Assembly: GCA_007859745.1 (NCBI GenBank)
Contig: SMLU01000001.1
Coordinates: 806,001 to 870,000, forward strand
From: Phycisphaerae bacterium RAS1
GTDB lineage: Bacteria; Planctomycetota; Phycisphaerae; UBA1845; Fen-1342
Direction: 5' to 3'
DNA: 64,000 bases
Part shown: positions 2,915 to 59,705 of the stretch, piece after piece
Numbering within the stretch: the stretch's first letter is position 1
How the letters are laid out: the number at the start of each line of letters is the position of its first letter
Translations under genes and position numbers: made by a program
Notes under the pieces: generated by a model
What the model was told of the DNA's origin: nothing
The model's database searches: none
The model's input: only the letters and a program-made list of their open reading frames with translations

Positions 2915-5900
2915 CTACCGGTTGTGCGGTTGCGGGCCGCGAAGGTCCGTCCGCGCCGGCGGAAGCTGCGGCGCCGGACGATTGGCGAATTTCGCCGCGT
3001 CACGCGTGTGCTGGCTTTCGAGCGGCGTCGGCTTGCCGTGGATGAACGCGTAGCGCACGGCGCCGCCCGCCTGGCAGACGTGATCGGTTGTGATGATCAC
3101 GTTCGCCAGCTTGCCCGCGTCCAGTGAGCCGTAGCGGTCGGCGATGCCCAGAATCTCGGCCGAGGTCAGCGTCAGGCTGCGCACCGCCGCGTCCGGGTCG
3201 AGGCCGTGAGCGACGGCCATGCCGGCGTCGATCGGCAGCAGCTTGGCCAGGTCGGCCTCGCGGTGGCCGAAGCAGAACCTGACGCCCGCCGCCGCCATCA
3301 CCGCCGGGGCGCGGTAGTTGCAGTCCCACTCGTCCTCTTCGCGCGGGTTGCCGAAGACGCCTTCATAAATCACCGGAACGCGCCGGGCCGCCAGCAGGTC
3401 CGCCATGCGCCATGCGTCGCGCCCGCCGACCAGGATCGGCCGCACGCCAACCTGCTCGGCAAAGAGTAGCGCTTCCAGCATGGGCTTGTAGCTGTTGACA
3501 TAGAACAGGACCGGCTTTTCGCCGCTGATAAAGGGGCGCATGGCTTCAAAGCGGGCGCTGACAGCGATGTCTGGACCGGTCGTTCGTAACGACGTCAACC
3601 CCGTGCTTGGCGCACGGGGTTCGGACAGACCGCCCGCCGCCGCTCTTTCCGAACCCGCCGCGCCAAGCGGCGGGGTGTCGTTCTTTCTCGCAGGCGTCAT
3701 CTCCGCGTAGCGCTTCGCATCGCGGAAGAACCGCTCCGTCCGTCGAAGCTGCTTTTCCCAGGGCTGCTCTTCGGCGCGGTCGCGGCGGAAGTCTTCCGGC
3801 GGCGGGGCTTCGATGATCGGCTTAGGCGGCGCCGACGGCAGGTTCACGACCAACCCCAGCCGCACGTCGGCGACCATCTCGTCGGTCGTCCAGCCGTGCA
3901 TGCGCAGCAATCCGGCCTGGCCGGCGACGAGCGGCCCCTCGGGCACGACTAGGGAAAGCAACACGCCTTCCGCACGCACAACGTCGATCATTCGGCTATG
4001 GGGATTGAAGGCTGAGACGGCCATCAGGTCCGGCTGGAACGTGCCGATCTCGCTGTTGTCGTTGGTGACGTCCGCCTGGCCGACTTCCTGCAAGCCGGTC
4101 GTCGTCGCCGCGTTGATCAGCCCCGGCCAGACGTGCAAACCGGCGGCGTCGATGACGTGTGCGTCCTTCGGCGCCTGGCCGGCTTTGCCGACGGTCTCGA
4201 TCTTCTCGCCGCGGATCACCAGCATGCCGCGCTCGATCGCCGGACTGCTGACGGGGTGGATCGTCGCGTTCATAATCGCGTAGGCGGGCGCAGCAGGCGG
4301 CGCGGGCGCGGCGACCGGCTCGGCGCCGCTGCCCTTGGCAACTTTCGCGGCGGTCGGCGGAGTGGTGGCGGGACGGCGCGCGGCCTTCGGCGAAGCGGGA
4401 TCGAAATCACGATGAACGAAGTACACCTCGCCATCGACCAGTGATATCACGCAACGGCCGAACGTGTCGAGCGGATGACCGTCGAACACGGCCAGATCGG
4501 CGTCCTTGCCGACTTCGATGCTGCCGATGTGCTTTTCCAGTCCGAAGAGCCTCGCGGCGTTCAGCGTGATCAACCGCAGCGCCTCGGTGCTCGTCAATCC
4601 TGAGAACTTCATGCACTTGGCGGCTTCGAGGTTCATGTGCCGCATCAGCTCGCCCGAATCGGATTTGATGGTTGAGTTCACGCCCGCCCGCAGCAGCATG
4701 CCGGCGTTCTGCGGGATCGCGTCGTAGGCTTCCAGCTTGTAGGCCCACCAATCCGAGAACGTCGCCGTACCGGCCCCGTGCCGGGCGATCTCGGGCATGA
4801 TGCGGTAACCCTCCAGCACGTGATGCAGGGCGGCGATACGTACTCCGAACTCCTCCGCCACGTCCATCAGCCGCAGGATTTCGTCATGCCGGTAACAGTG
4901 CGTGTTGACCCACAGCTTGCCGTCGATGATGTCGGCCAGGGCTTCGAGGCGGATGTCGCGCCGCAGCGGCGGCACGTCCCGCCCGGCGGCCTTGGCGCGG
5001 GCGTACTCGGCGCGGCGGGCGGAATACTCCTGCCCCGCAGTCAGCGCGCGGCGGAGCGTCGCTTCGACGCCCATGCGCGTGCCGGGGAAGCGCAGGATTT
5101 CAGGCGGCTGGCCGAAGCGGCCGGGTGAGGGCATTCCGCCGCGCTTCACGTTTTCGCCCAAGGCCCATTTCACGGTCCGCGGCGCGTCTGGGAAGATCAT
5201 TTCGTCGGCGCTGCGGCCGTACTTGAGCTTCAGGATCACGTTCTGCCCGCCGATCGAGTTGGCCGAGCCGTGCATAGCGTGGATGCTGGTGCACCCGCCG
5301 GCGAGGGCGTCGAAGACGGTGCGGTCGTCGTGGCGGATGACGTCGGCCTCGCGGACTTCGCAGGTGACGCTGCCGGAGAATTCGTTTACGTCGTCGAGCG
5401 CGATGTGGGAGTGCGGATCCAGAATGCCGGGCATCAGCACGTAACCGGTCAGGTCGATCGTCTTCACGCCTTCGGGGGCGGCCAGGTCCTTGCCGATCGC
5501 CGCGATCTTGCCGGCCTTCACCAGCACGGACGTGCCGGGCAGGTCATCTCCCGAGATGGTCAGGACCAGCGCGTTTTTCAGAAAGACATTTCCGCCGGTT
5601 GAAACGGGCGGCTTGCGCATGGACTCGTTTTCGATCGGCCAGCGCGGCTCGTGCATCGCGATTTCTTCAAACGCATTCGCCGGCGCGGAAGATGAGGCGG
5701 GCTGTGTGCCGGGCGCGCTGGCCGGCGCGGATGCAGGTTGCGATTCACTGCCGGGCGCGCTGCTCGTTGCCGGCTGCGACGTGGGACCGCCTTTGCCCTC
5801 TTTTCCGCGGCCGCCAGGGCCTTTCTTGTCGTCGCCTTCGGCGTCGAATTCGAACAGCCGGCCGTCGACGATCGTAAAGCGGATCTGCGATTCCTTTTCC

Positions 5901-14381: not shown

Positions 14382-14453
14382 GCAGGCGAATTTAACGTCA
14401 GCAGGGCCGGAGCGGCAACTCGCAGCGAAGGGTGAGAACTGGTCAAGATTTCC

Positions 14454-14516
14454 GGGGAGCATCGGCGTCCCGCCGGTGCAATTCTGCACTCGCACCGGCG
14501 GGACGCCGATGCTCCC
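14454..14516. repeat. Hairpin repeat (ggggagcatcggcg ... cgccgatgctccc)
   Basis: A near-perfect hairpin with 25-nt arms (gggagcatcggcgtcccgcc/ggcgggacgccgatgctccc) around attctgcact. The same sequence recurs at 51182, and a variant at 27901. Upstream, gaactggtcaagat matches the outer arm of the copy at 51167. Confidence 0.85.
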
Positions 14517-14522
14517 TGTGCG

Positions 14523-16317: not shown

Positions 16318-16484
16318 CGTAGGGTCCGCCGTGCGGACCGACTCAGGTAGGGTCCGCTGTGCGGACCGACGCGCGGCCGGGCCACTCTCAATATCATACG
16401 CGACGCGCGTTGGAATGCTCTCGCGATCCATGGCCCGCACAGCGGACCCTACCGGATTCGACGGTCCGCACAGCGGACCCTACC
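16318..16484. repeat. Cluster of four 'gggtccgctgtgcggacc' hairpins
   Basis: Two copies of gtagggtccgc(c/t)gtgcggaccgac (16319, 16347) face two inverted copies (cggtccgcacagcggaccctacc, to 16453 and 16484). Each unit is itself a hairpin, and together they form a larger inverted repeat. Two more units lie at 18399-18473. Confidence 0.85.
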
Positions 16485-16493
16485 GATCATCTC

Positions 16494-16985
16494 TCAGGCC
16501 CCGCGCGTCGATCGCAGCGCTTCGCGCAGAAGATCGCGCAGAGAATGGAACTGCTCGGGCGGAAGCGGCAAGCGGGCTTCCTTCGGCCGGGCCCAGATCG
16601 GTCGGCCCCACCAGCCGTCATCCGCATAGCGCGGGATGACGTGGCCGTGCAGATGCGGCACTTCGTTGCCAAGGATGGCATAGTTGAGCTTGGCCGGCCG
16701 GCAGACGGCGTGCACGGCCGCAGCCAAGGCCGTCACATCCTTCATGAACTGCTTGCGCTCCAGGATCGAAAGCTCGAACAGCTCGGTGAGGTGCCGCGGG
16801 AAGACGAGGATGCAGTACCCGCGAAACGCGGCGTCATCCTGAAGCAGGATTCGTCCGGAGGGGCAGGCGGCGACCAGAGCCGGATCGTCCGCGGTCGCGG
16901 CGTCGTTGGCGCGGCACATCGGGCAGCCGGTCCCATCGATGAGTCCGGTCCACTTTGCTTCGTCAAACACGGGGGCATGCTCCAT
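16494..16985 (-). CDS. HIT-family nucleotide hydrolase/transferase
   Basis: 163 residues from ATG 16985 (MEHAPVFDEAKW). Further upstream in-frame ATGs add a poorly conserved-looking extension. The histidine-triad signature HLHGHVIPRY is at about residues 115-124, preceded by LNYAILGNEVP, which is diagnostic of HIT proteins. An N-terminal TGCPMCR and the triad region could bind zinc, as in several HIT proteins. Such enzymes act on nucleoside phosphoramidates or dinucleoside polyphosphates; the exact substrate is unknown. It ends ten bases from the hairpin cluster and is on the same strand as the permease downstream. Confidence 0.9.
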   Translation of the reverse strand: MEHAPVFDEAKWTGLIDGTGCPMCRANDAATADDPALVAACPSGRILLQDDAAFRGYCILVFPRHLTELFELSILERKQFMKDVTALAAAVHAVCRPAKLNYAILGNEVPHLHGHVIPRYADDGWWGRPIWARPKEARLPLPPEQFHSLRDLLREALRSTRGA

Positions 16986-18385: not shown

Positions 18386-18398
18386 GTGATCGGCGCGG

Positions 18399-18473
18399 TG
18401 GGTCCGCACAGCGGACCCTACCGTTGCTGACGGCGTGACCGGCGCGGTTGGTCCGCACAGCGGACCCCACGGT
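18399..18473. repeat. Two further 'ggtccgcacagcggacc' hairpins
   Basis: Units gtgggtccgcacagcggaccctacc and ggttggtccgcacagcggacccc lie between convergent genes. They are the same family as the cluster at 16318. A 3'-end role is plausible from placement only. Confidence 0.8.
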
Positions 18474-18475
18474 TG

Positions 18476-20272
18476 CTACCGTCGCCGCAGCACGTGCACC
18501 GCGTACGTCTCCGTTGTGAACTCGCCGACGATGTCGTACTTGCCCATCAGCCATTCGGCGATTCCCCTGGCATAGTCCACGCCGAATCCCTCGGCGCCGT
18601 ACTCAGACACGTTGCGGGCGGTGATGACGGCGTACTCCGGATTGGCCGTGGCCAGCCGCTGGATCATCGCCGCTTCGCTGTACTGCCCGGAAAAATCGAG
18701 CGGGAGAAATGTATGCACACCGAGTGGATTTGAAGCGCCCGCCACGAAGGTCAGGCCGGCGCCTTCGGGCAGGACGACCACGCGCGCCCCGCGTGCGTGC
18801 TGCGCCAGATACGCAGCCGCCGCGTCAACGGCGCCGGCCTGAATTTCCTGCACCGGCAGCCGGCCGCGCGGCCCCACGGCCCACCTCGGCTGCCCGCCGA
18901 ACACCGCGGCGTCGGTCGCACGTGACTGAACCAAATGCGCGATGCACAGCGTCGCAAGCCACAGCGCCGGCGCGACGCTTCCGACCCCCGCCGCCGCGCA
19001 CCGCCCGCCCCGGCGGTCGCTGTTTCCCGCCGGCGCGATCGCCCGCCCACCCAGCACCGCCAACGCGACCAGCGCCGGCGGCAGCAGATAGAAACCATAA
19101 TGGCCGGCCTGGCATTGCAGCAGCATGCGCGCGATCGCGGCGCCGGCGAACGCGGTGAGTACCAGCTCGGCCGCCAGCCGCGTGTCGCTTCGACCGTTCC
19201 GGAGCCACGACGCGGACATCACGCCGGCGCCGGCCAGCAGCAGCAAGGGCGCACCGGCAAACACAGTCTCCGTGCCGAGCCACGCCGCAACCGCGACGCC
19301 GGGAGAGGCGGCGACAACTTGCACGAGAAATACGCCGCGAGCCTGCACGCGTGCGTCCACCGTCCGCGCGTACCAGCGCTGCGCGAGCGCCGCCATCCCG
19401 CAAGCGATTATCAACGCAGCGGCGGAAAGCGCCACGTTGGCCAAAGACCCGTAGGGATTGTCCAGCCCGCTGTGCCTCAGCGAAAAGACGTTGGCCGAGA
19501 GGTTTCCGGGCAGGAACAGGTTGTCGTGCCATAGGGCGTCGCCGCACATTGCGTAGAAACGCCCGAACGTCACGACCGGCGTCAGGAGCGCCGCCGCGTA
19601 GCCCACAAGGTGCACCGGCCGCCACGGCTGCCGCGCGATCAGACGCAGGAGCACGAACAGCGCGTGGGCTGCAACGCACGCGAACAGGGGCTCGATCTTG
19701 GTGAGCGATGCGGCGGCTAATCCCGCCGCCGATGCCGCGAAGTCGAGACTCCTGCCGCGCAGCATGTGTCGAAGCAGGAAGTAGACGCTCGCGGTTGCGA
19801 GCAGGATGCCGTAGGTCGTGGGAAAGGCATAGGGCAGGACGAAGTTGAACGCGTTCAGCCGGGTCAGGTGCGCGAAGGCGCAGGTGCAGAGGAATGCCGC
19901 GGCGCACGCGGTCGCGGTCAGCCGGTCGGCGAGCAGGCGGGCGGTGCGGTAGATCAGCCCGGTCATGAGGGCGGCGACGATCAGGCCGGCGGAGGTGAGC
20001 GTCTGCGTGTGCGCGCCGCAGGCGGCGTAGAGCCACGAGTTCAGGGTGGGCGCGAGCGGGCCGTACCAGTAGCGCACATCGCGATAGAGAATTTTTCCCT
20101 GCGACAACTGCAGCGGCACGTCCAGCTCGCGGCCGCAATCGATGATCGCGTCGCCCCAGAGGTTCCAGGTGCTCAGAGTGTTGGCGGAAAAAACGGCAGC
20201 GAGCAGGGCGACGACGGCGAGGCGTCGTGACGTTGCGCTGCGATGCGCGGCGGCGGGCGTCGGGGTGGTCAT
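18476..20272 (-). CDS. Polytopic membrane protein, GT-C glycosyltransferase-like
   Basis: 598 residues from ATG 20272 (MTTPTPAAAHRSATSRR), with AGGAA upstream. About eleven hydrophobic helices run from residue 17 to 420, followed by a soluble C-terminal domain (QAGAVDAAAAYLAQHARGAR...TAETYAVHVLRRR region). The first extracytoplasmic loop has acidic residues (WNLWGDAIIDCGRELDVPLQ), followed by RDVRYWYGPLAPTLNSWLY. This matches GT-C/GT39-type enzymes that transfer sugars from polyprenyl-phosphate donors. Acceptor and donor are unknown. It is convergent with the RCK gene. Confidence 0.75.
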   Translation of the reverse strand: MTTPTPAAAHRSATSRRLAVVALLAAVFSANTLSTWNLWGDAIIDCGRELDVPLQLSQGKILYRDVRYWYGPLAPTLNSWLYAACGAHTQTLTSAGLIVAALMTGLIYRTARLLADRLTATACAAAFLCTCAFAHLTRLNAFNFVLPYAFPTTYGILLATASVYFLLRHMLRGRSLDFAASAAGLAAASLTKIEPLFACVAAHALFVLLRLIARQPWRPVHLVGYAAALLTPVVTFGRFYAMCGDALWHDNLFLPGNLSANVFSLRHSGLDNPYGSLANVALSAAALIIACGMAALAQRWYARTVDARVQARGVFLVQVVAASPGVAVAAWLGTETVFAGAPLLLLAGAGVMSASWLRNGRSDTRLAAELVLTAFAGAAIARMLLQCQAGHYGFYLLPPALVALAVLGGRAIAPAGNSDRRGGRCAAAGVGSVAPALWLATLCIAHLVQSRATDAAVFGGQPRWAVGPRGRLPVQEIQAGAVDAAAAYLAQHARGARVVVLPEGAGLTFVAGASNPLGVHTFLPLDFSGQYSEAAMIQRLATANPEYAVITARNVSEYGAEGFGVDYARGIAEWLMGKYDIVGEFTTETYAVHVLRRR

Positions 20273-20629: not shown

Positions 20630-22057
20630 GTGAGCCGGATTCAGTTTGCAACAGCGCTCCTTTTCTGCGGCGTTCTGGCATCGACCACCCCCGCCGGCGG
20701 AACGCCGCTCACCACCACGCGCGTGGCGGTCGGCTTCACGCAGCCGGTGCTGGTGGTGCCCTCGCCGGGCGACGACAGCACGCTGTACGTGGTCGAAAAG
20801 CCCGGGCGGATCAAGATTCTACGCAACGGCGTGATCCTGCCGACCCCCTTCCTCGACATCACCAGCATTGTGAATTCTTCAACGTTGGAGTGGGGACTGC
20901 TGGGCATGGCCCTGCACCCGGACTTCCTGGTCAACGGGTATCTATACGTTAACTACAACGACAGCGGCGGAAACACGGTCATCGCCCGCTTCCAGCGCTC
21001 CGGCGGCAACCCCGATTTCGCGGACATCGCGACGCGCGTCGTCGTGCTTTTCCTGGCGCAGCCCAACGCCAACCACCGCGGCGGCTGGCTGGCGTTCGGC
21101 CCGGACGGCTACCTGTATGACTCGCAAGGCGACGGCGGCCCACAGAACGACACCAATAACCGCGCCCAGAATATCAACCTGCTGCAAGGCAAGATTCTGC
21201 GGCTCGATGTCGACGGTCTGGACGACATACCCGGCAACGCCGACGACGACACCGTCGCGGACGTCAATCGAAACTACTCTATTCCTCCGGGCAATCCCTA
21301 CGTCGGCGCTAGCGGCGAGGACGAAATCTGGGCCTACGGCCTCCGGAATCCCTGGCGATGCAGCTTCGACCGCCTGACCGGCGACCTGTGGATCGCCGAC
21401 GTGGGCCAGAACACGCGCGAGGAGATCGACTTTCAGCCAGCCGGCGCGCTCGGCGGCCGGAACTACGGCTGGCGCTGCACGGAGGGTACGTTCTGTACGG
21501 GCTTCACGGGCTGCACCTGCAACGGGCCGACGCTCACGCCGCCGATTCACGAATACAACCACACTCTGGGAGTCTCGGTCACGGGCGGTTACGTCTATCG
21601 CGGTTGCGCCATTCCGGATTTGCAGGGGACCTATTTCTTCGCCGACTACCAGACCAGCCGCATCTGGTCGCTGCGCTACAACGGTTCGGTCGTCAGCGAA
21701 TTCCAGGAGCGCACCACCGAGCTCGACCCGCCCGCAGCGCTGGCGATCAACGGTCCGGCGGGTTTCGGCGAGGACAACTTCGGCGAAATCTACATCTGCG
21801 ATTACAGCGGCGGCGAGATCTTCAAGATCGTGCCCAGCGGCGTGCCCGCCGTCCCCTGCCGCGTGCCGGGCGACTGCAACTGCGACGGCGTGATCGATAT
21901 CCTCGACATCAATCCGTTCACGCTGGCGCTGAGTGATCCTGCGGCGTACGCGGCGGCCTATCCGAACTGCAATATTCTAAACGCGGATGTGAACGGCGAC
22001 GGCGTCGCGGACATTCTGGACATCAACCCGTTCGTCGATCTGGTCGCGGGGCGCTAG
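20630..22057 (+). CDS. Secreted PQQ-dependent sugar (glucose/sorbosone) dehydrogenase-like protein with dockerin tail
   Basis: 475 residues from GTG 20630, with AAAGGA upstream. A signal peptide (FATALLFCGVLASTTPAGG) leads into a six-bladed beta-propeller of the soluble aldose/glucose dehydrogenase type. Motifs include TLYVVEKPGRIKIL, LLGMALHPDF, NHRGGWLAFGPDGYLY (H and G typical of the PQQ/Ca site), GKILRLDVDG, WAYGLRNPWRCSFD and LWIADVGQNTREEID. The last 70 residues are paired dockerin-type repeats (CNCDGVIDILDINPF, DVNGDGVADILDINPF). Probably an exported sugar oxidoreductase; a substrate-free structural role cannot be excluded. A paralogous catalytic domain without the dockerin is at 49855. 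Confidence 0.88.
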   Translation: MSRIQFATALLFCGVLASTTPAGGTPLTTTRVAVGFTQPVLVVPSPGDDSTLYVVEKPGRIKILRNGVILPTPFLDITSIVNSSTLEWGLLGMALHPDFLVNGYLYVNYNDSGGNTVIARFQRSGGNPDFADIATRVVVLFLAQPNANHRGGWLAFGPDGYLYDSQGDGGPQNDTNNRAQNINLLQGKILRLDVDGLDDIPGNADDDTVADVNRNYSIPPGNPYVGASGEDEIWAYGLRNPWRCSFDRLTGDLWIADVGQNTREEIDFQPAGALGGRNYGWRCTEGTFCTGFTGCTCNGPTLTPPIHEYNHTLGVSVTGGYVYRGCAIPDLQGTYFFADYQTSRIWSLRYNGSVVSEFQERTTELDPPAALAINGPAGFGEDNFGEIYICDYSGGEIFKIVPSGVPAVPCRVPGDCNCDGVIDILDINPFTLALSDPAAYAAAYPNCNILNADVNGDGVADILDINPFVDLVAGR

Positions 22058-22678: not shown

Positions 22679-22845
22679 CACAGCAGCATCGCCTCCACCG
22701 CCGGCGGCGGGTCGAATCCGAGCGCCGGCGCCGGTCTGCACCGCACTCGCGTTGCAGACGCTTGATGATACTCCGGCAAGAGGCTTGCCGGCGGCGCCTG
22801 TCGCGGCTGGGTGTGCCCAGAAATCCGGGCAAACCCGCTGGTTTA

Positions 22846-22964
22846 TCCGAACCCGCCGCGCCAAGCGGCGGGGTGACGTCCGGGCGCATTCGCGGCGGCG
22901 CGTGATGGGCTGACGCCGAGCGCCGTGCGCACCTCAACCCGCCGCTTGGCGCGGCGGGTTCGGA
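22846..22964. repeat. REP-like double hairpin, full copy
   Basis: The left arm tccgaacccgccgcgccaag and the right arm cttggcgcggcgggttcgga are perfect inverted copies around about 60 nt of non-conserved sequence. The left arm ends gggtgac and the right begins caaccc. Each arm also folds on itself (cccgccgc/gcggcggg). Confidence 0.9.
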
Positions 22965-23097
22965 AAGAAAGGTCGCCCGCGCGGAAAACTGGACGCAGCG
23001 GCGCGGTCGGATAACCGCCTGACCCTCTCCGTGATAATTCCCGCCGCCCACCTAGCCGATGCACAGGGCAGCAGAGTATCCCTGGAGAGGCTCACCT

Positions 23098-25508: not shown

Positions 25509-25578
25509 GGGATCGCCAGCGGCCATGTGCCTCGATTCGCGCGCGGGGAGCCATCCCTGTAGAGACCGCCGGCGTCTT

Positions 25579-25678
25579 TCCGAACCCGCCGCGCCAAGCG
25601 GCGGGTTGACGGTCGCTAGCGATCGGCGCCCCACAGGCCGCAGATGTCACCCCGCCGCTCGGCGCGGCGGGTTCGGAC
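25579..25678. repeat. REP-like double hairpin, full copy
   Basis: Arms tccgaacccgccgcgccaag (left) and ctcggcgcggcgggttcgga (right, one mismatch) enclose about 36 nt including gtcgctagcgatcggcgccc, close to the core of the copies at 52527 and 58465. It lies between the large TPR gene and the small lipoprotein genes. Confidence 0.9.
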
Positions 25679-37145: not shown

Positions 37146-38828
37146 ATGCGTATCGCATCGCACCTGCTGCGGGCGCCCCTCTTGCTTGGGCTCAGCCTGC
37201 TGTTGCCAACTCCGGCGCGAACGGAGTGGATCAAGCCGCTTGACCCGCCCGCCGCTCCGCCGGACGTCGACAAACTCCCGCACGGCGACTGCGGGCGGTT
37301 GACCTGTTTCATCGCGACGGCGGCCAACATGCTGGCCGGCGCCGGCTACGGCAATGGCGCCACCGTGCAGGCGCGGGCTGACGCGATCTACCTGCAGTTG
37401 CGATCGCACTTCGGGACGTTCGAGTGAGGGTGTCTCGACAGAGCCATCAGTTGGTGGCTTCAGTCCGAGCACAATACCTGGCCGGAAAACAAGTATGACG
37501 TGGTCACGATGTACGGCACGCGCGACCAGCTCACTCCGTGGGCCAACCCGGACGGCGCGATGTTCATCGGCAACCACCTGCGGGCGGGCGACTTTGTCGG
37601 GATCACGCTCTCGTGGCCGCTCGCTACGCCGAACAACGTCGTACACGTCGTGACGGTTTGGGGCGACAGCGGCGACGCTGACCCGCTGACTAACAACCCC
37701 GAGTTTTTCATCATGACCGACTCCGACCGGGAGGATCCCGACGCGACGCCCGATCTCCAGACCTACAACTATGACAACTTCTACTACCCGCCGGAGCCGA
37801 ACCGCGGACCGGGCTGGTACTTCGACTACACCTACCCGTCGGCATGGGGACACCCGTACATCATAAACGCCGTCACGCTTTCGCAGGTCGCGGACAACGA
37901 TCCGCAGGGCAACCGACGTGTCGTCCGCGCGACCGGCTCCTACCTGGCGACCAACGACCTGACGAGCGCGACCGGATTGCACTACGACGTGGGAACGGAC
38001 ACCGAGATTCTGTACTACGACACGCGCATCATGCCGCCCGTCTCCTCGCCGCCCACGATCGTCGAAATCGACGACCCGCCGACCTGGCTCACGGTCGATT
38101 GGACTCTGGATTTTCCGGCGCCGCCGGGCTACAGCGTGTTCATCACGACCGACTTCATCCTGCCGGCGTGGAACGCGGTGTGGTATGGCAACGTCCATTT
38201 CACGCCCGACGGCCTGATGAGTGTCCAGCCCGCGTTCAACTGGCAAGTCGACACGCCTGATCTGCCGCCGCCATTGGATGCCGCAGCTTGCGGCGGATTC
38301 GTGGTGGCCGCGTTCAAGGTGTACGCAGACCAGGCCGGTACGCAGGAGCTGTGCCAATACAGGCTTGAGCATGAGTACGCCTTCGATCAAGACCCCGAGT
38401 CGCACACTTTCACGCTGACGTCGCGGGAGAGCGCGACGACGCTTTACATCGGCGACCTGCACTTCGGCCACAGCCACGGCCTGCTGGACGAAAACGAACT
38501 GTGGGGATTCGAGAACTGGCTTACGTCACCGCAAGGCATTGTGGAGCTGCCGCCGCAGGAGCAGACCGTGACACTGCTGGACTGGAACACGCTGCTGCCC
38601 TATCCGCCCTATATCTGCGTCGGCCCCGGCGCCGGCTCGGCCGATCTGAACTGCGACGGCGTAGCGAACATCCTGGACATCAACCCGTTCATTCTCGCGC
38701 TGTCCAGTCCGGCGATGTACCAGCAGCAGTACCCGCTGTGCGAAATCACGCACGGCGACATGAATGGCGACGGAGAGGTGAACATCCTGGACATCAATGG
38801 ATTCGTCCAGAGGCTGACGGGAGGGTAG
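37146..38828 (+). pseudogene. Papain-like cysteine-peptidase/dockerin gene split by one in-frame TGA
   Basis: ATG 37146 has a strong AAAGGAGG site. A signal peptide (SHLLRAPLLLGLSLLLPTPART) leads to GDCGRLTCFIATAANMLAGAGYG, a papain/IdeS-type Cys-helix. Codon 94 is TGA (37425-37427), yet the same frame continues without a break to 38828: GCLDRAISWWLQSEHNTWPE, then NNVVHVVTVWGDSGD (likely catalytic His), a beta-rich region, and dockerin repeats DLNCDGVANILDINPF and DMNGDGEVNILDINGF. A TGG-to-TGA change (Trp) fits the context. Nonsense mutation, sequencing error or read-through are the options. Promoter and start site are intact, so decay would be recent. A shorter protein could restart at GTG 37500, but would lack Cys and signal. 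Confidence 0.8.
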
Positions 38829-38927: not shown

Positions 38928-39275
38928 GGCGACGGGGATCGAAGCCGGAGTTGCGGGGCGCCGAAAAAGCCATCCGCGCTTGGGGGAAGCAGGAGATGGT
39001 CTATGCACACCTCATTGCCAGAGAGTGACCAGGCGCCGTGCAAATCCGCCGACACCCGTTGTGTCCGAACCCGTCGCGCCAAGCGACGGGTTGACGTCCA
39101 TGCGACACGCGGGCGTCTGCTCCTGGTTGGCTTGCTTCTCTGTTTCGCCGCCGCGGCGCCCGCCGACATCCTCAACGTTCCCGCGGACTACCCGACGATC
39201 CAGGCAGCGGTCGACGCGGCCGCGCCGGGGGATCACGTCGTCCTTGCCCCGGGCGTCTACACCGGCCCAGGCAAC
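38928..39275. repeat. Direct repeat copy 1: leader and N-terminus of the beta-helix gene
   Basis: About 348 bp, starting ggcgacggggatcgaagccg, includes 75 bp upstream of ATG 39003, the start, the half REP element, the signal peptide and the first beta-helix turn (LNVPADYPTIQAAVDAA). It is almost identical to 43803-44148, with small indels and substitutions. Confidence 0.9.
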
Positions 39276-42200
39276 ACCAACGTGCTATTCTTCGCCAACT
39301 CCGTGACAGTGCGGAGCGTCAACCCCGACGACCCCGCGACGGTCGCGGCGACCGTCATGGACTGCGCGCAGGCGGCGAGAGGATTTTCGATCTACGGCTA
39401 CGCGCTCTTGGTGGGCTTTACCATCACCGGGGCCGCCGACTGGGCGATCGCCGCTGACGAAAGTTTTCTCGTGGTTCGCAACTGCATCATCACGGCCAAC
39501 GCCAATGGGCTCTCCATTTCTCGCGGCGGTCCCGTCTTCGCTTACGCCGGGATCGTCGAAGACTGCACGATCAGTGATAATGGCACCGCGCTCTCAGCGG
39601 GACGTTGCGGATTGACTGTGCGCAACTGCATCATCAGGAACAACCAGACTGGCGTCGTTTTTAACTATCCGCCGCCTTTCCCACCTCCAGGCCCGCCGCC
39701 TCCAACTACTAGGCTGGAAAACTGCCTGGTTTTCGGAAACATGGGTCCGGTGACTAGCTCGAACACGTACCTGAGCGTGCTCAACTGCACGGTTGTCGCT
39801 AATCCAGGGGGTGGGGTCGCCGGCGATCTTGACGTGGTCGCAAACTCAATCCTGTGGGGCAACGCGGGGTTTCAATTGCAGCTCACCCGCGGTGCGGTCC
39901 GCTACTGCGACATCGAAGGCGGCTGGAGCGACCCGACCTGCAAAAACCTCCTGCCGCTCTTTCTCGACGCCGACACTGACAACTTCCGGCTGCGGCCCGG
40001 CTCGCCCTGCGTGGATGCGGGCGACAATTCGCGCGTGCCGCCGGAGCTGACGACCGACCTTGACGGCCGGGCCCGGTTCCTTGACGACCCGACCACGCCC
40101 GACACTGGGGTGGGCCTCCCGCCGATTGTTGACATGGGCGGCTACGAGCGGCCGCCGCCGGCGATCCTTAATGTTCCCGCGGACTATCCGACGATCCAGG
40201 CGGCCGTCGACGCGGCTGTGACCGGAGACTACGTTGTCATCGCGCCGGGGACCTACAGCGGCCCGGGAAACACAAATGTCTTGCTCGGCAACAAGGCGAT
40301 CACGGTACGCGGCCTAAACCCGGACAACCCGGACACCGTTGCGGCAACCGTGGTCGACTGCGAAAACAGCGCCATGTTCGGTTTCGAGATTACCGGGGGA
40401 GGACGAGAAACCACTCTTAACGGGCTGACGGTGAAGCGCGCCGCGTACTGGGGAGTGGTAGCCCGAAACGCGTCCAGTCCGACCGTCCGGAACTGTGTCA
40501 TTTCGGGTTGCGGGAGAAGCGGAATCTCCTTCCAGGGTGGGTCAACGTCCTATCCGCTCGTTTCCGGCTGTACGATTACGGGAAACGGTCCGGCGGGCAC
40601 CTCCGAGGGTGGAGGAATCTCTGCGTTTCAGTGCGAGCTGACGCTGCGCGATTGCATCGTCACGCGTAACACGAGCACCGGCAACTCGGCTGGCGGCGTA
40701 TTCTTCTTCCACGATCCGGATGTAGGGCCGCGGCCGTATCCAAAGATCCAAAACTGCCTGATCGCGCAAAACCAGTGGGCCGACGACCCGCTGGGCTGGG
40801 GCGCCGGCGGGATAATGAGCCTATTCACTCCACTCCAGATCGCGAACTCGACGATCGCCGGCAACATCGGCGCGGGTGTATGGCAAATGGCCCCAACGGC
40901 CGAATCGACTATCGTCAACGCAATCGTGTGGGGAAACAGCCAGCCTCACTTGATTCTAGAAAACGGCTCAATCCGCTACTCCGACATCGAAGGCGGCTGG
41001 CCCGACCCAACCTGCAAGAACCTCCCGCCGCTCTTCGTCGATCCCGCGGCTGACAACTTCCGGCTTCAGCCCCACTCACCCTGCGTGGACGCGGGCGACA
41101 ATTCGCTCGTGCCGCCAGAGCTGACAACCGATCTCGACGGTCAGCCCCGGTTCCTTGACGACCCAACCACGCCCGACACTGGCGCCGGCGTCCCGCCGAT
41201 TGTCGACATGGGCGCTTACGAGCGGAAGCTGCCGGTCCTCAATGTCCCCGCGGACTATTCGACGATCCAGGTGGCGGTCGACGCCGCCGTGACGGGCGAC
41301 CATGTTGTCATTGCGCCGGGGACGTACACCGGCCCGGGCAACACGAACGTCTCGCTCGGCAACAAGGCGATCACGGTACGCGGCACAAACCCGAACGACC
41401 CGGCGACCGTCGCGGCAACTGTGGTCGATGGTGAAAATAGCGCAGCGGTCGGCTTTGAGATTGCTGGGGGAGGCCGTGAAACCACTCTGAGCGGACTGAC
41501 CGTGACGCGCGCCGCGTACTGGGGCATCGTGGCCCGGAACGCGGCCAGCCCCACCATCGAGAACTGTATCATTTCGGGTTGCGGGAGAAGCGGAATCTCC
41601 TTCCAACAAGGGTACCAGGGTCTGTTCACGTCCTATCCGCTCGTTTCCGGCTGTACCATTTCAGGAAACGGCCCGGCGTGGGATTTTGAAGGCGGAGGCA
41701 TCTCTGCTTTTCAGTGCGAGCTGACGTTGCGCGATTGCATCGTCACGCAGAATACGAGTACCGGCGACAGTCTGACGGCTGGCGGCGTGTTCTTCTTCTA
41801 CGACGCGGATGCAGGGCCGCGGCCGTATCCAAAAATCCAGAACTGCCTGATCGCGCGCAACCAGTTTGACCAAGACCCGCCAAGCGCATGGGGCGCCGGC
41901 GGGATACTGAGCGTAAGCGCGCCGCTCCAGATCACGAACTCGACCATCGTGAACAACACGGGGGGCGGAGTCGGATACGATGTCGACTTCGTTGTAAACT
42001 CGATTCTTTGGGGAAATGAGGGTTGGCAGATTTCAGGGGCTCCTGCGGTTCGCTACTGCGACATCGAAGGCGGCTGGGGCGATCCGACCTGCAAGAACCT
42101 CCCGCCGCTCTTCGTCGATCCCGCCGCCGACAACTTCCGGGTTCAGCCCCGCTCGCCTTGCGTGGATGCCGGCGACAATTCGCTCGTGCCGCCGGAGCTG

Positions 42201-43790
42201 ACGACCGATCTTGACGGCCAGCCCCGATTCCTTGACGACCCGAACACGCCCGACACGGGCGCCGGCGTCCCGCCGATTGTTGACATGGGCGCTTACGAGC
42301 TGCTGCCTCGGCCGCCGGCGGTCGTCAATGTCCCGGCCGACTACCCGACGATCCAGGCGGCAGTCGACGCCGCCCTGTTCGGCGACACGGTGCTGCTCGC
42401 GCCCGGCATCTACACCGGTACAGGCAACACAGACGTCGACTTTCGCGGCAAACCGATCACCGTGCGCGGCGCCGACGCGGACGATCCGAGCCTAACCGTT
42501 GTCGATGCCCAGGGCGTCGACGGCGGATTCCGTTTTCAGACCGGCGAGTCGCTCGGGTCAATCCTGCGCGACCTTAGCGTTGTACGCTCCGCCGACAACG
42601 CAATTCACGCGGTCAACGCGGGGCCGACGATCGAGAATTGCCTGCTCGTCGACAGCCTTGGCCACGGCATTTACGTCGGCGGCGGCAGCCCCATCGTGCG
42701 TGCCTGCACGATTTCAGGCAGCGGCGGAGCGGGCATCTTCACCGACGGCGGCGATCCAATCATCATCGCGTGTATCATTACGTCGAACAACGACAGTGGG
42801 CTGCATTTCGAGGGCGGCTGGCCGCGCGTGCGCGACTGCGTCATCTCGCAGAACAACGCGAACATGGGCGGCGGGATCTTCTCGTTCGGCAACCTGTACG
42901 CCGGTCCGGCGAACCTGTCTGTGCGCGGCTGCTACGTCACCGACAACATGGCGTACTCGGGCGGAGGGGGCATCGCCACGGCCAACTTCTTCGTGTCCGA
43001 CGTTGAGCTGCGCGACTGCGTAGTCACCGGCAATTCGGCCCACAAGGGCGGCGGGATATGGTGCTTTTTCGATCCCGCGGCGGTCCGCGACGGCGGCGAC
43101 CGGCCGAACTTTCCGCGCATTCAGAACTGCCTGATCGCGCGAAACGAGGCGCACACCGCCGGCGGCGTGTGGACCCTGATGAACGATGTGCGCGTCTCAA
43201 GCTCGACAATCACGCAGAACACGGCGTCGGAATACGGAGGGCTGCTTGGCTACGGCTCGATTCACAATTCGATCGTCTGGGGCAACCTGCCGGACTGGGA
43301 CCAGGTGTGGCCGCACGAGTCGTGGAGCTTGCAGTTCTCCGACATCGAAGGCTGCTGGTGGTGCGGCCCGACTTGCATCAGCCTGCCGCCGCAATTCGAG
43401 AACGCCGCCGCCGGCGACTTTCGGCTGACAACCGGCTCTCCGTGCGTCGACGCCGGCGACAATGCCGCCGTCCCATCCCAACTCATCGCCGATATCGCCG
43501 GTCGAAATCGCTTCTGCGACGACCCCAACACGCCCGACAGCGGCGCCGGCGACCCGCCGCTGGTTGACATGGGCGCCTACGAGCTGATCGTGCCGCGGCT
43601 GGCTGACATGAACTGCGACGGCTGGTCCGACATTCGCGACATCAACCCGTTCATCCTGGCCGTCACGAACCCGGTCGCCTATGCGCAGGCGTACCCGGAT
43701 TGCAGCTACTTGCTGGGAGACATGAATAGCGATGGCGTCGTGGACGTGCTCGACATCAACCCGTTTGTACAGCGGTTGGCAGGAGGGTAG
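39003..43790 (+). CDS. Giant secreted right-handed beta-helix protein, four modules plus dockerin
   Basis: 1595 residues; ATG 39003 has AGGAG seven bases upstream. The signal peptide is unusually long: a 42-residue n-region containing VRTRRAKRRVDV (encoded by a half REP element), then RLLLVGLLLCFAAAAPAD. Four modules each start LNVPADYPTIQAAVDAA and end IVDMGAYE-like: 39171-40150, 40167-41226, 41238-42309 and 42325-43590. Each is a parallel beta-helix with pectate-lyase-like rungs (ENCIISG, NSILWGN, RYCDIEGGW). Modules 2 and 3 are nearly identical. The C-terminus is a dockerin pair (DMNCDGWSDIRDINPF, DMNSDGVVDVLDINPF). No catalytic residues can be assigned. Likely a surface or matrix protein, possibly polysaccharide binding. 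Confidence 0.9.
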   Translation: MHTSLPESDQAPCKSADTRCVRTRRAKRRVDVHATRGRLLLVGLLLCFAAAAPADILNVPADYPTIQAAVDAAAPGDHVVLAPGVYTGPGNTNVLFFANSVTVRSVNPDDPATVAATVMDCAQAARGFSIYGYALLVGFTITGAADWAIAADESFLVVRNCIITANANGLSISRGGPVFAYAGIVEDCTISDNGTALSAGRCGLTVRNCIIRNNQTGVVFNYPPPFPPPGPPPPTTRLENCLVFGNMGPVTSSNTYLSVLNCTVVANPGGGVAGDLDVVANSILWGNAGFQLQLTRGAVRYCDIEGGWSDPTCKNLLPLFLDADTDNFRLRPGSPCVDAGDNSRVPPELTTDLDGRARFLDDPTTPDTGVGLPPIVDMGGYERPPPAILNVPADYPTIQAAVDAAVTGDYVVIAPGTYSGPGNTNVLLGNKAITVRGLNPDNPDTVAATVVDCENSAMFGFEITGGGRETTLNGLTVKRAAYWGVVARNASSPTVRNCVISGCGRSGISFQGGSTSYPLVSGCTITGNGPAGTSEGGGISAFQCELTLRDCIVTRNTSTGNSAGGVFFFHDPDVGPRPYPKIQNCLIAQNQWADDPLGWGAGGIMSLFTPLQIANSTIAGNIGAGVWQMAPTAESTIVNAIVWGNSQPHLILENGSIRYSDIEGGWPDPTCKNLPPLFVDPAADNFRLQPHSPCVDAGDNSLVPPELTTDLDGQPRFLDDPTTPDTGAGVPPIVDMGAYERKLPVLNVPADYSTIQVAVDAAVTGDHVVIAPGTYTGPGNTNVSLGNKAITVRGTNPNDPATVAATVVDGENSAAVGFEIAGGGRETTLSGLTVTRAAYWGIVARNAASPTIENCIISGCGRSGISFQQGYQGLFTSYPLVSGCTISGNGPAWDFEGGGISAFQCELTLRDCIVTQNTSTGDSLTAGGVFFFYDADAGPRPYPKIQNCLIARNQFDQDPPSAWGAGGILSVSAPLQITNSTIVNNTGGGVGYDVDFVVNSILWGNEGWQISGAPAVRYCDIEGGWGDPTCKNLPPLFVDPAADNFRVQPRSPCVDAGDNSLVPPELTTDLDGQPRFLDDPNTPDTGAGVPPIVDMGAYELLPRPPAVVNVPADYPTIQAAVDAALFGDTVLLAPGIYTGTGNTDVDFRGKPITVRGADADDPSLTVVDAQGVDGGFRFQTGESLGSILRDLSVVRSADNAIHAVNAGPTIENCLLVDSLGHGIYVGGGSPIVRACTISGSGGAGIFTDGGDPIIIACIITSNNDSGLHFEGGWPRVRDCVISQNNANMGGGIFSFGNLYAGPANLSVRGCYVTDNMAYSGGGGIATANFFVSDVELRDCVVTGNSAHKGGGIWCFFDPAAVRDGGDRPNFPRIQNCLIARNEAHTAGGVWTLMNDVRVSSSTITQNTASEYGGLLGYGSIHNSIVWGNLPDWDQVWPHESWSLQFSDIEGCWWCGPTCISLPPQFENAAAGDFRLTTGSPCVDAGDNAAVPSQLIADIAGRNRFCDDPNTPDSGAGDPPLVDMGAYELIVPRLADMNCDGWSDIRDINPFILAVTNPVAYAQAYPDCSYLLGDMNSDGVVDVLDINPFVQRLAGG
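39063..39097. repeat. Half REP-like element within the signal-peptide region
   Basis: tccgaacccgtcgcgccaag, then cgacgggttgac: a single arm of the REP-like family with compensating stem changes (ccgtcgc/gcgacgg). It is read in frame as RTRRAKRRVDV. Confidence 0.85.
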
Positions 43791-43802: not shown

Positions 43803-44148
43803 GGCGACGGGGATCGAAGCCGGAGTTGCGGGGCGCCGAAAAGCCATCCGCGCTTGGGGGAGCGGGAGATTGTCTATGCACACCTCATTGCCAAGAAGCG
43901 ACCAGGCGTCGTGCGAATCCGCCGACGCCCGGTCTGTCGGAACCCGTCGCGCCAAGCGACGGGCTGACGTCCATGCGACAGGCAAGCATCTGCTCCTGGT
44001 TGGCCATCTTCTCTGTTTCGCCGCCGTCGCGCCCGCCGACATCCTGAATGTTCCGGCGGACTATCCGACGATTCAGGCGGCGATCGACGCGGCTGTGCCG
44101 GGGGATCACATCGTCCTGGCGCCAGGAGTCTACACGGGTCCCGGCAAC
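43803..44148. repeat. Direct repeat copy 2 of the beta-helix leader
   Basis: The counterpart of 38928-39275, starting ggcgacggggatcgaagccg 13 bp after the stop of the giant gene. It carries over the ribosome-binding site, start, half REP element and signal peptide of the truncated paralogue. Confidence 0.9.
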
Positions 44149-44487
44149 TGGTGGCTGACCATCAACGGCGACATCGTGCTGCGTGGGACAGACCCGTGGG
44201 ACGAGTCCGTCGTGGCGGCGACGGCCATCGCCGGTGGGGACCCCAGTTGTTACTACCCAGGTTGTCCGCGTGTCACCCTGTCCAACGGCGCGACGATCGA
44301 GGGAATCACGGTGCGCGATGCTGGCCTGTGGGTTAATGCGTTCATGGCCGCGATCACCGATCCGGTCGGCTTCCCACAGGTCGTGCCCGGCTGCTCGGTG
44401 CTGCACGCAGACTGCAACGGTGACGGATGCGTCAACGTGTTGGACATCAACCCGTTCGTGCTGTGCGTCGTCGCCGGCGGGTGCTGA
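43876..44487 (+). CDS. Truncated beta-helix/dockerin paralogue
   Basis: 203 residues from ATG 43876 (GGGAG upstream), equivalent to ATG 39003 of the giant gene. The signal peptide and first rungs (ADILNVPADYPTIQAAIDAA, HIVLAPGVYTGPGN) match the giant protein. After about residue 150 (ATIEGITVRDAGLW) it joins directly to the end of a dockerin: VNAFMAAITDPVGF, then DCNGDGCVNVLDINPF. The first dockerin Ca-loop and nearly all helix rungs are missing, consistent with internal deletion after tandem duplication. The frame is intact and it ends in VVAGGC. It may be expressed as a small exported protein or be an early pseudogene. Confidence 0.8.
   Translation: MHTSLPRSDQASCESADARSVGTRRAKRRADVHATGKHLLLVGHLLCFAAVAPADILNVPADYPTIQAAIDAAVPGDHIVLAPGVYTGPGNWWLTINGDIVLRGTDPWDESVVAATAIAGGDPSCYYPGCPRVTLSNGATIEGITVRDAGLWVNAFMAAITDPVGFPQVVPGCSVLHADCNGDGCVNVLDINPFVLCVVAGGC
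43937..43972. repeat. Half REP-like element in the duplicated leader
   Basis: cggaacccgtcgcgccaagc, then gacgggctgac. It has the same altered stem as 39063, so it was duplicated with the leader rather than inserted independently. Confidence 0.85.
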
Positions 44488-47937: not shown

Positions 47938-47975
47938 GGTCACCCCGCCGCTTGGCGCGGCGGGTTCGGAAAGAC
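47938..47975. repeat. Half REP-like element
   Basis: The right arm only: gtcaccccgccgcttggcgc, then ggcgggttcgga, followed by aagacgg. It is in the 47783-48156 gap, otherwise without a recognisable gene. Confidence 0.88.
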
Positions 47976-48156: not shown

Positions 48157-49023
48157 ATGCGCTATGGCGTTGGGTTGGGGGTGATCGGGGCGCTGGCGTC
48201 GGTCGCGCTCGCCGATCTGCGAACGTTCCGCGAAACGTACAGCGGTTCGACCAATCACGGGAACTGGAGCTACTTCGGCGACCCGGGGACGGGCATCGAG
48301 GTGGTGGAGACTTCGGGCGGCAATCCCGGCGCGTTCTGGCACAGCACCTGCAATCAGTCCGAACTGCTGTGCCTGGACACGTACGCCCCGCAGCCGCGAA
48401 CGCAACTGGGCGTCAACTCGCGCTTCGTCGGCAACTACCGCGCGCGGCAGGTGACGGCGCTGGGCATCGACTTGGTTCTCTTTTATGTCGATTTTTCGGC
48501 CGCGGGCCGGCCGCTGACGGTCATGCTGCGCGGCGACGCCGGCACGCCCGGCGACCCCTCCGACGATTACTTTGTCTATCGCCTCGAACCCTATTACGTG
48601 CCGGAGGTAGGTGATGGCTGGCGTTCGTTCACGTTCGCGATTCCGTCGCAGAACCTGACGCTGCCGCTCGGCTGGTCCGTCCTGAACGGCTCGGGCGACA
48701 ACAACGCCGACTGGAACGCGGCGATTACGAGCGTGGCGCAGGTCGTGTTCTTCTACGGCGACCCGGAGTTTTTCTTTATCTTCCAGCAGTGGGAACCGGG
48801 GCTGGACAACCCGCGAATCACGCGGAATGTGCTGGTGGGCGACCTCAACTGCGACGGCGAGGTGAACATCCTCGATATCAACGCCTTCACGCTGGCGCTG
48901 GCCGACGAAACGGCCTACGCCGCCGAGTATCCGAAGTGCGACAGCATCGCAGCCGACGTGAACGACGACGGCGAGGTGAACGTGCTCGACATCAACCCGT
49001 TCGTGGCGCTGATCGGCGGGTGA
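48157..49023 (+). CDS. Secreted dockerin-tagged protein
   Basis: 288 residues from ATG 48157, with AGGAG seven bases upstream. Signal peptide: MRYGVGLGVIGALASVALAD. Residues 20-215 are beta-rich (FRETYSGSTNHGNWSYFGDP, VTALGIDLVLFYVDFSAAGR, WRSFTFAIPSQN) and resemble a laminin-IV-A or carbohydrate-binding jelly roll, as an inference. The tail is a dockerin pair (DLNCDGEVNILDINAF, DVNDDGEVNVLDINPF). No catalytic motif. Its last 32 bp overlap the end of the convergent hydrolase gene. Confidence 0.82.
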   Translation: MRYGVGLGVIGALASVALADLRTFRETYSGSTNHGNWSYFGDPGTGIEVVETSGGNPGAFWHSTCNQSELLCLDTYAPQPRTQLGVNSRFVGNYRARQVTALGIDLVLFYVDFSAAGRPLTVMLRGDAGTPGDPSDDYFVYRLEPYYVPEVGDGWRSFTFAIPSQNLTLPLGWSVLNGSGDNNADWNAAITSVAQVVFFYGDPEFFFIFQQWEPGLDNPRITRNVLVGDLNCDGEVNILDINAFTLALADETAYAAEYPKCDSIAADVNDDGEVNVLDINPFVALIGG

Positions 49024-51166: not shown

Positions 51167-51269
51167 ACTGGTCAGGTTTGCGGGGAGCATCGGCGTTCCG
51201 CCGGTGCAATTCTGCACTCGCACCGGCGGGACGCCGATGCTCCCCGCGCCGGGAGTCAACTTGACCAGT
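51167..51269. repeat. Full 103-bp element with nested inverted repeats
   Basis: The outer ends ACTGGTCAGGTT and AACTTGACCAGT are inverted. Inside is the hairpin gggagcatcggcgttccgcc/ggcgggacgccgatgctccc seen at 14454. It is MITE-like in form. A loose aacttgaccagt end also occurs near 20508. Confidence 0.85.
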
Positions 51270-52476: not shown

Positions 52477-52526
52477 TGCGTGCGCGGAACGACGGGCGGG
52501 CGCCTCCGGTTTCAGGTGGCGATCCG

Positions 52527-52625
52527 TCCGAACCCGCCGCGCCAAGCGGCGGGGTGACATCCGCCGCCGGTGGGGCGCCGATCGCTAACGATCGTCACCC
52601 CGCCGCTTGGCGCGGCGGGTTCGGA
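52527..52625. repeat. REP-like double hairpin, best full copy
   Basis: The arms tccgaacccgccgcgccaag / cttggcgcggcgggttcgga, extended by cggcggggtgac / gtcaccccgccg, form a perfect 32-nt inverted repeat around a 35-nt core containing ggggcgccgatcgctaacg. The core is shared with 58465. Confidence 0.95.
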
Positions 52626-52830
52626 CCAGCCAGCGGGCCTACCGGGATTTCTGACGCCGCTGCACTCCCCACTGCCAGGCCCTTTTGACAATCGTCGGCG
52701 GCTGTCGCATACTGGCCGCCCGGCGTAATTCACAGGCCACACTGATGGGATCGTCCACGCACGGCTGAAGCGGACGCCCCGACGCCGACAGCGACCGATC
52801 AACCAGCGCTCGTAGTTCAGGAGTGAGCGA

Positions 52831-56032: not shown

Positions 56033-56136
56033 TTTCCGAACCCGCCGCGCCAAGCGGCGGGTTGACGATCCCAGGCGAGCGGCGCCACTTAGGCCGCGGA
56101 CGTCACCCCGCCGCTTGGCGCGGCGGGTTCGGACAG
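56033..56136. repeat. REP-like double hairpin, full copy with duplicated right end
   Basis: tttccgaacccgccgcgcca left arm and gtcaccccgccgcttggcgc, ggcgggttcgga right arm. The last cggcgggttcggacagaca is repeated once more at 56146-56164, which suggests slippage or a second partial insertion. Confidence 0.9.
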
Positions 56137-58464: not shown

Positions 58465-58566
58465 TTTCCGAACCCGCCGCGCCAAGCGACGGGTTGACGC
58501 CCGCGGTCTGTGGGGCGTCGATCGCTAACGACCGTCACCCCGCCGCTTGGCGCGGCGGGTTCGGAT
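58465..58566. repeat. REP-like double hairpin, full copy
   Basis: Left arm tccgaacccgccgcgccaag with cgacgggttgac, right arm gtcaccccgccgcttggcgc, ggcgggttcgga. The core ggggcgtcgatcgctaacga matches the copy at 52527. Confidence 0.92.
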
Positions 58567-59602: not shown

Positions 59603-59705
59603 TTTCGGAACCCGCCGCGCCAAGCGGCGGGGTGACAATCGCACGCACGCGGCGACACACAGGCCGGGGACGTCAACCCGCCGCTTGGCGCGGCGGGTTC
59701 GGACA
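59603..59705. repeat. REP-like double hairpin, full copy
   Basis: tttcggaacccgccgcgcca left arm and gtcaacccgccgcttggcgc, ggcgggttcgga right arm, with a 40-nt core. It lies between convergent genes. Confidence 0.9.

Follow-up and report, generated by a model that had tools for sequence, protein, structure and literature searches.

How does a palindromic repeat that populates mainly the extragenic DNA of a genome come to lie inside the reading frame of an enzyme, and what has it added to the protein? The question is raised by a window of 64,000 nt (contig C1, positions 806001-870000, of a 5.5 Mb planctomycete genome; "the window" denotes this entire stretch), in which an amidohydrolase-like gene reads straight through a double hairpin. 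We consider it about 90% probable that a lineage-specific family of REP hairpins, organized mostly as inverted doublets, has proliferated in this planctomycete, that an outward-facing doublet of 93 nt entered the amidohydrolase gene within its third module, where the added Pro/Gly/Ala/Ser-rich residues would form a tolerated flexible loop between two helices, and that about ten other genes were hit by the same kind of insertion. The gene would have stayed open because the length of the element is divisible by three and it reads without a stop. The features concerned are collected in Table 1.

Table 1. Amidohydrolase-like gene, its internal element and the REP copies of the window (window coordinates).
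Feature	Position	Strand	Basis or remark
Three-module amidohydrolase-like gene, 1441 aa	2915..7240	-	Element sits in third module; open frame, Pfam, homologues, coding score
In-frame REP doublet, 93 nt = 31 codons, encodes approximately NDTPPLGAAGSERAAAGGLSEPRAPSTGLTS	3591..3683	-	Homologue gap; gapless 88% match in C1:926k; low-confidence loop in model
REP unit 2, stem variant CCCCGTGC/GCACGGGG; sense reading SEPRAPSTGLTS	3589..3626	-	Profile score 27.4; variant census
Spacer between units	3627..3646	.	Alignable to spacer of C1:926k repeat
REP unit 1, canonical stem CCCGCCGC/GCGGCGGG; antisense reading TPPLGAAGSE	3647..3684	+	Profile score 54.2
Convergent REP doublet (+ unit 22863, - unit 22947)	22845..22965	.	
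Canonical convergent REP doublet, intergenic	25578..25677	.	
Single REP unit (GTCGC/GCGAC stem), 5' edge of called frame	39063..39090	+	
Single REP unit (GTCGC/GCGAC stem), near 5' edge of called frame	43936..43963	+	
Single REP unit, intergenic	47944..47971	-	
Canonical REP doublet, intergenic	52526..52626	.	RNA fold z = -9.2
Canonical REP doublet, just upstream of gene	56034..56134	.	
Canonical REP doublet, intergenic	58466..58566	.	
Canonical REP doublet, intergenic	59604..59704	.	

The element in the amidohydrolase gene

The host gene has Pfam matches to Amidohydro_1/3 and a coding score of 281 (gene calls on 2.4 Mb), and its frame is uninterrupted from end to end, element included. Relatives recovered by protein search belong to Planctomycetota, the top match among those with a name being a Phycisphaerae bin, and full-length homologues in the same family share 50-55% identity. 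An earlier note on this DNA had described a double hairpin within an unbroken amidohydrolase frame, with its arms in reversed order and about 27 residues added. The hairpin, which resolves into two profile-matched units, the open frame and the arm order are all borne out here, while the addition has to be corrected to 31 codons. The two units face outward ('-+') with their centres 57 nt apart; the + arm alone is canonical, the - arm carrying paired changes in its stem. A chance hairpin was ruled out: the REP profile is silent in control sequences, and the RNA fold of window positions 3585-3690 reaches -66.3 kcal/mol (z = -5.7).

Comparison with homologues, as the earlier note had proposed, reveals the gap expected of an insertion. 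Between conserved anchors the window protein has 65 residues, compared to 28-37 in about 35 alignable homologues from several phyla, none of which has the residues of the element; the refuting case named in the earlier note, the same residues without the repeat DNA, was not encountered. The nearest two homologues have 34 residues there, and the difference of 31 equals the length of the element. Including its spacer, the 93-nt element aligns without gaps (82/93, 88%) to the repeat unit of another gene of this genome, C1:926k, in which a variant and a canonical arm are paired just as in the window doublet. The exact borders of the element rest on the protein gaps and on this sister copy. As a candidate target-site duplication we considered GTCGTTC (3579-3585 and 3677-3683); it was dropped, because a distance of 98 nt between its copies would disrupt the frame and the right-hand one overlaps the REP consensus.

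When the structure of the third module is modelled (mean pLDDT 86.8), the element comes out as a low-confidence loop (pLDDT about 46-55) between two confident helices, 176-204 and 245-254. If the element is translated, tryptic peptides including NDTPPLGAAGSER and AAAGGLSEPR are predicted. The module had also been noted to lack its HxH motif. This absence stands, but it is a trait of the whole family: the motif is missing from the third module of all homologues, where the consensus reads GLINAG, and the insertion is thus not the cause of its loss.

A lineage-specific REP family

The repeat unit is a 38-nt hairpin with the profile consensus KTCCGAACCCGCCGCGCCAAGCGGCGGGKTGACGTCCG, the profile being built from local copies. 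This profile detects 225 copies over 1.2 Mb, 399 over 2.4 Mb, and no match in mono-shuffled or reversed sequence; a pattern search over the whole 5.5 Mb genome gives 847 matches (about 850 copies). The stem is Watson-Crick paired in 95-99% of copies over eight core positions, with compensatory paired variants. Two units are present at 152 of the 202 loci found in 2.4 Mb, and the typical doublet is convergent ('+-') with a spacing of 62-65 nt. Among neighbouring units in 1.2 Mb, 97 pairs are '+-' versus 13 '-+', the arrangement of the window copy. These are imperfect palindromes within the 20-40 bp range, in high copy number, mostly extragenic and frequently arranged as inverted dimers, as is characteristic of REPs.

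In 113 other genomes of the order the pattern has no match, and scanning the family for a shorter version of it returned a single two-mismatch site outside the source genome. A search of viral contigs gave no exact match, and one of plasmids no match. Judged by this sequence distribution, the insertion in the window gene is lineage-specific, since the whole repeat family is missing from those 113 genomes.

REP units within other genes

Gene calls made with a home-made order-4 Markov model on 2.4 Mb, equivalent to 44% of the genome, place 112 REP units within called genes. Most of them lie at the 5' edge and were not counted as insertions, being probable upstream DNA in which an open REP extends the frame upstream; REP DNA beside start codons can thereby inflate gene calls. 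Internal REPs occur in 11 genes, hand-picked by the position of the REP in the gene, six of which were afterwards confirmed by homology. Besides the window gene and C1:926k, they comprise UvrA, a spermidine-synthase-like membrane protein, CarB, a TPR/TMTC-like protein, an AddA-like helicase, Mfd, RecG, a copper-ATPase-like pump and MnmE.

The homologue gap is verified in the window gene, RecG (89 residues versus 7 in the solved RecG structure 1gm5), CarB (51 versus 8 in 1bxr), the TMTC-like protein (57 versus 6 in relatives), the AddA-like protein (49 versus 2 in relatives) and MnmE, whose TrmE_N domain stretches over 140 residues for a profile of 117 positions. In the Cu-ATPase the REPs lie within a metal-binding domain that matches its profile from position 25 only, which would fit an insertion; in Mfd and UvrA the homologue gaps are ambiguous. 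For the gene C1:926k neither a homologue within the family nor a Pfam match was found, and the insertion there is accordingly putative. The gene contains the REP-doublet unit 5.3 times in tandem (C1:925978-926702, inside a frame of 1400 codons) with a period of 138 nt (46 codons), 98% matches and all units in one frame, an array that on sequence grounds is a recent in-gene expansion.

Additional repeat-like peptides were seen in CarB (C1:425000-428803), CcoG (C2:39864-41687), Mfd (C2:562197-565910) and the Cu-ATPase (C2:43198-45981). These peptides (SRDREG/PTRDREG, LPHGRGSD, EGAREEG, ESEQGL) may be translations of other dispersed repeat families.

The internal copies are read in a restricted set of frames. 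Across the 399 copies, five of the six REP frames stay open in 94% or more. Nine of the 11 internal genes nevertheless read either SEPAAPSGG (sense) or TPPLGAAGSE (antisense), compared to an expectation of two in five (P = 0.006; CcoG, with an N-terminus that is possibly non-coding, is left out of the count). UvrA and CarB, as exceptions, are read in the PNPPRQAAG frame, one that is terminated by a stop in most copies, and the arginine-rich and Trp/Phe-containing frames are unused in all 11. The spacing of internal '+-' doublets is 63 nt in four of four cases, while other doublets peak at 64 nt (P = 0.005); this is the same constraint seen differently and not independent evidence. Selection appears to retain mainly insertions read as SEPAAPSGG or TPPLGAAGSE over those in arginine-rich or hydrophobic frames, and the likely cause of the bias is the loss of insertions that were read in harmful frames. 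A synonymous/non-synonymous comparison of the internal copies gave no sign of constraint beyond this.

The GTGC/GCAC stem variant

The stem variant of the second window arm, GTGC/GCAC, is rare: ten units at six loci genome-wide, a count from which less strict matches, their stem being CTGC or TTGC, are excluded. All nine units situated in fully read sequence fall within called genes, in phase 2 and in the two mild frames, SEPAAPSGG or TPPLGAAGSE. The five genic loci are the window gene, C1:926k, RecG, the Cu-ATPase and the N-terminus of CcoG, where the site could be upstream DNA; the sixth (C3:101749) is intergenic. With CcoG taken as non-coding, the association of the variant with internal sites gives a Fisher P = 7e-5, a post hoc value derived from few loci that possibly share ancestry. 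The outward doublet with 57-nt spacing was seen only within genes, of which there are two; the nearest spacing among non-coding outward pairs is 59 nt.

This distribution is what a REP sub-lineage would leave if it were specialized for coding sequence, or survived better there, and moved between genes in the same frame. One of the six loci is nevertheless intergenic, the association is subject to the reservations just given, and we know of no mechanism by which a REP would prefer coding sequence. We therefore hold such specialization to be doubtful, although it fares best among the alternatives. The fuller scenario, in which a coding-adapted sub-lineage spreads from gene to gene with one protein frame kept and is amplified in C1:926k to a five-fold tandem of 46 residues, is to be taken as speculative. 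If it were true, an "extragenic" palindrome would be turning into a source of protein segments.

Alternative explanations

Instead of being merely tolerated, the insertion could have been co-opted, with its loop or its strong mRNA hairpin regulating the enzyme or its expression. The stability of the hairpin would suit such a role, and so would the share of DNA-repair genes among those with internal REPs (UvrA, Mfd, RecG and AddA-like, 4 of 11, a descriptive count without genome-wide background), a bias like that published for other phyla (PMC3733652). Against co-option, the loop is predicted to be disordered, the host genes are functionally unrelated, and a synonymous/non-synonymous test on the internal copies detected no protein-level constraint (P = 0.15). 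We judge it improbable.

The earlier note had suggested from the reversed order of the arms that two halves were inserted separately, and the differing stem sequences and the rarer order do lend this some appeal. It is contradicted by the repeat unit of C1:926k, which matches the window element from end to end, spacer included, and shows the same pairing of a variant with a canonical arm. Such a match argues for insertion in one piece and makes separate insertion very unlikely. That the residues are ancestral and were lost in other lineages, or that the REP match is fortuitous, has a negligible probability, because the homologues lack the residues, the profile finds nothing in the controls and the repeat is missing from the rest of the order; ancestral residues were accordingly rejected.

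Relation to known systems

The insertion of a doublet from a lineage-specific REP family recalls the Rickettsia palindromic elements (RPE), the protein-coding palindromes described by Ogata et al. (reviews: PMC2229807, PMC10969869), to which the earlier note had likened the window element. The likeness holds as far as the comparison goes: in both cases lineage-specific palindromes of about 100 nt lie in frame in unrelated conserved genes, are absent in homologues and encode a recurrent peptide. The two differ in phylum and lifestyle of the host, and the planctomycete copies are mostly extragenic and presumably translated where they lie in genes, whereas for one decorated enzyme of Rickettsia (gmk) the element peptide has been demonstrated in the expressed, active protein (PMC2229807). 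The planctomycete REP may work like an RPE, in the sense of a functional analogy only.

In-frame intragenic REPs as such have already been published. A catalogue of GTAG- and CGTC-tagged REPs within genes spans several phyla (Di Nocera et al. 2013, PMC3733652), examples being Opitutus terrae, R. conorii and Thauera; DNA-repair genes stand out among the targets, with uvrA, helicases and recB. Similar to the copies described here, they are intragenic, often dimers encoding 20-30 aa, and their clusters encode longer stretches. The results section of that study reports CGTC repeats in five phyla, Planctomycetes not among them. The present family shares with the CGTC super-family the CGTC end (its reverse-complement consensus starts with CGTCA, the tag columns being 94, 91, 87 and 79% conserved) and a loop within 4-5 nt, here the 5-nt GCCAA. 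The super-family stem has 8-9 bp with A-T at positions 1-2; here there are eight G/C-rich core pairs, the first A-T is found in 86% and the second position pairs in 45%. The tail is CGGA instead of CCA, and the tag lies inside most dimers (TT), whereas HH predominates in the super-family, the window copy being of the rare tag-outside form. Based on the differing tail and the opposite dominant orientation of the dimers, we file the repeat as a new REP family and not under CGTC-1 to 4. The planctomycete family is new and its coding signature unusually clear.

With REPINs/BIMEs (PMC3116915) the repeats have in common the inverted doublets, structured spacers and hundreds of copies. No REP-flanked RAYT transposase was found among ten examined of the 20 genes matching Y1_Tnp (PF01797) genome-wide; the REPs closest to any of the ten lie at distances of 1.4 and 2.3 kb. 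CGTC REPs are likewise said to be without a dedicated transposase (PMC3733652), and the planctomycete family would presumably have been mobilized by some enzyme. ERIC, Correia and YPAL MITEs (PMC2229807) are likewise small palindromes that have become joined in frame with genes, but they are longer and have terminal inverted repeats and target duplications, none of which were recognized at the window copy.

Protein-coding palindromes have classically been a Rickettsia curiosity along with scattered cases. This planctomycete offers a second dense system, measurable in a new phylum: a GC-rich genome with at least 11 decorated genes. Comparison of the two could address the selection of frames, the recurrence of repair genes as targets in unrelated phyla and the retention of the peptides in mature proteins.

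Other repeats in the window

The window carries several further repeats. A second palindromic family, GGTCCGCACAGCGGACCCTACCG, is represented by four copies in two pairs (16417-16496 and 18386-18483), and two palindromic copies of 76 nt (14446-14521 and 51174-51249) are 93% identical at a distance of 36.7 kb. Large direct repeats with a spacing of about 1.07 kb and 64-87% identity occupy 39893-43598. Dockerin-like repeats (about GDxNxDGxVNxLDINxFV) occur in several frames, at 2640-2807, 21869-22036, 38640-38807, 43602-43769, 44407-44460 and 48838-49005.
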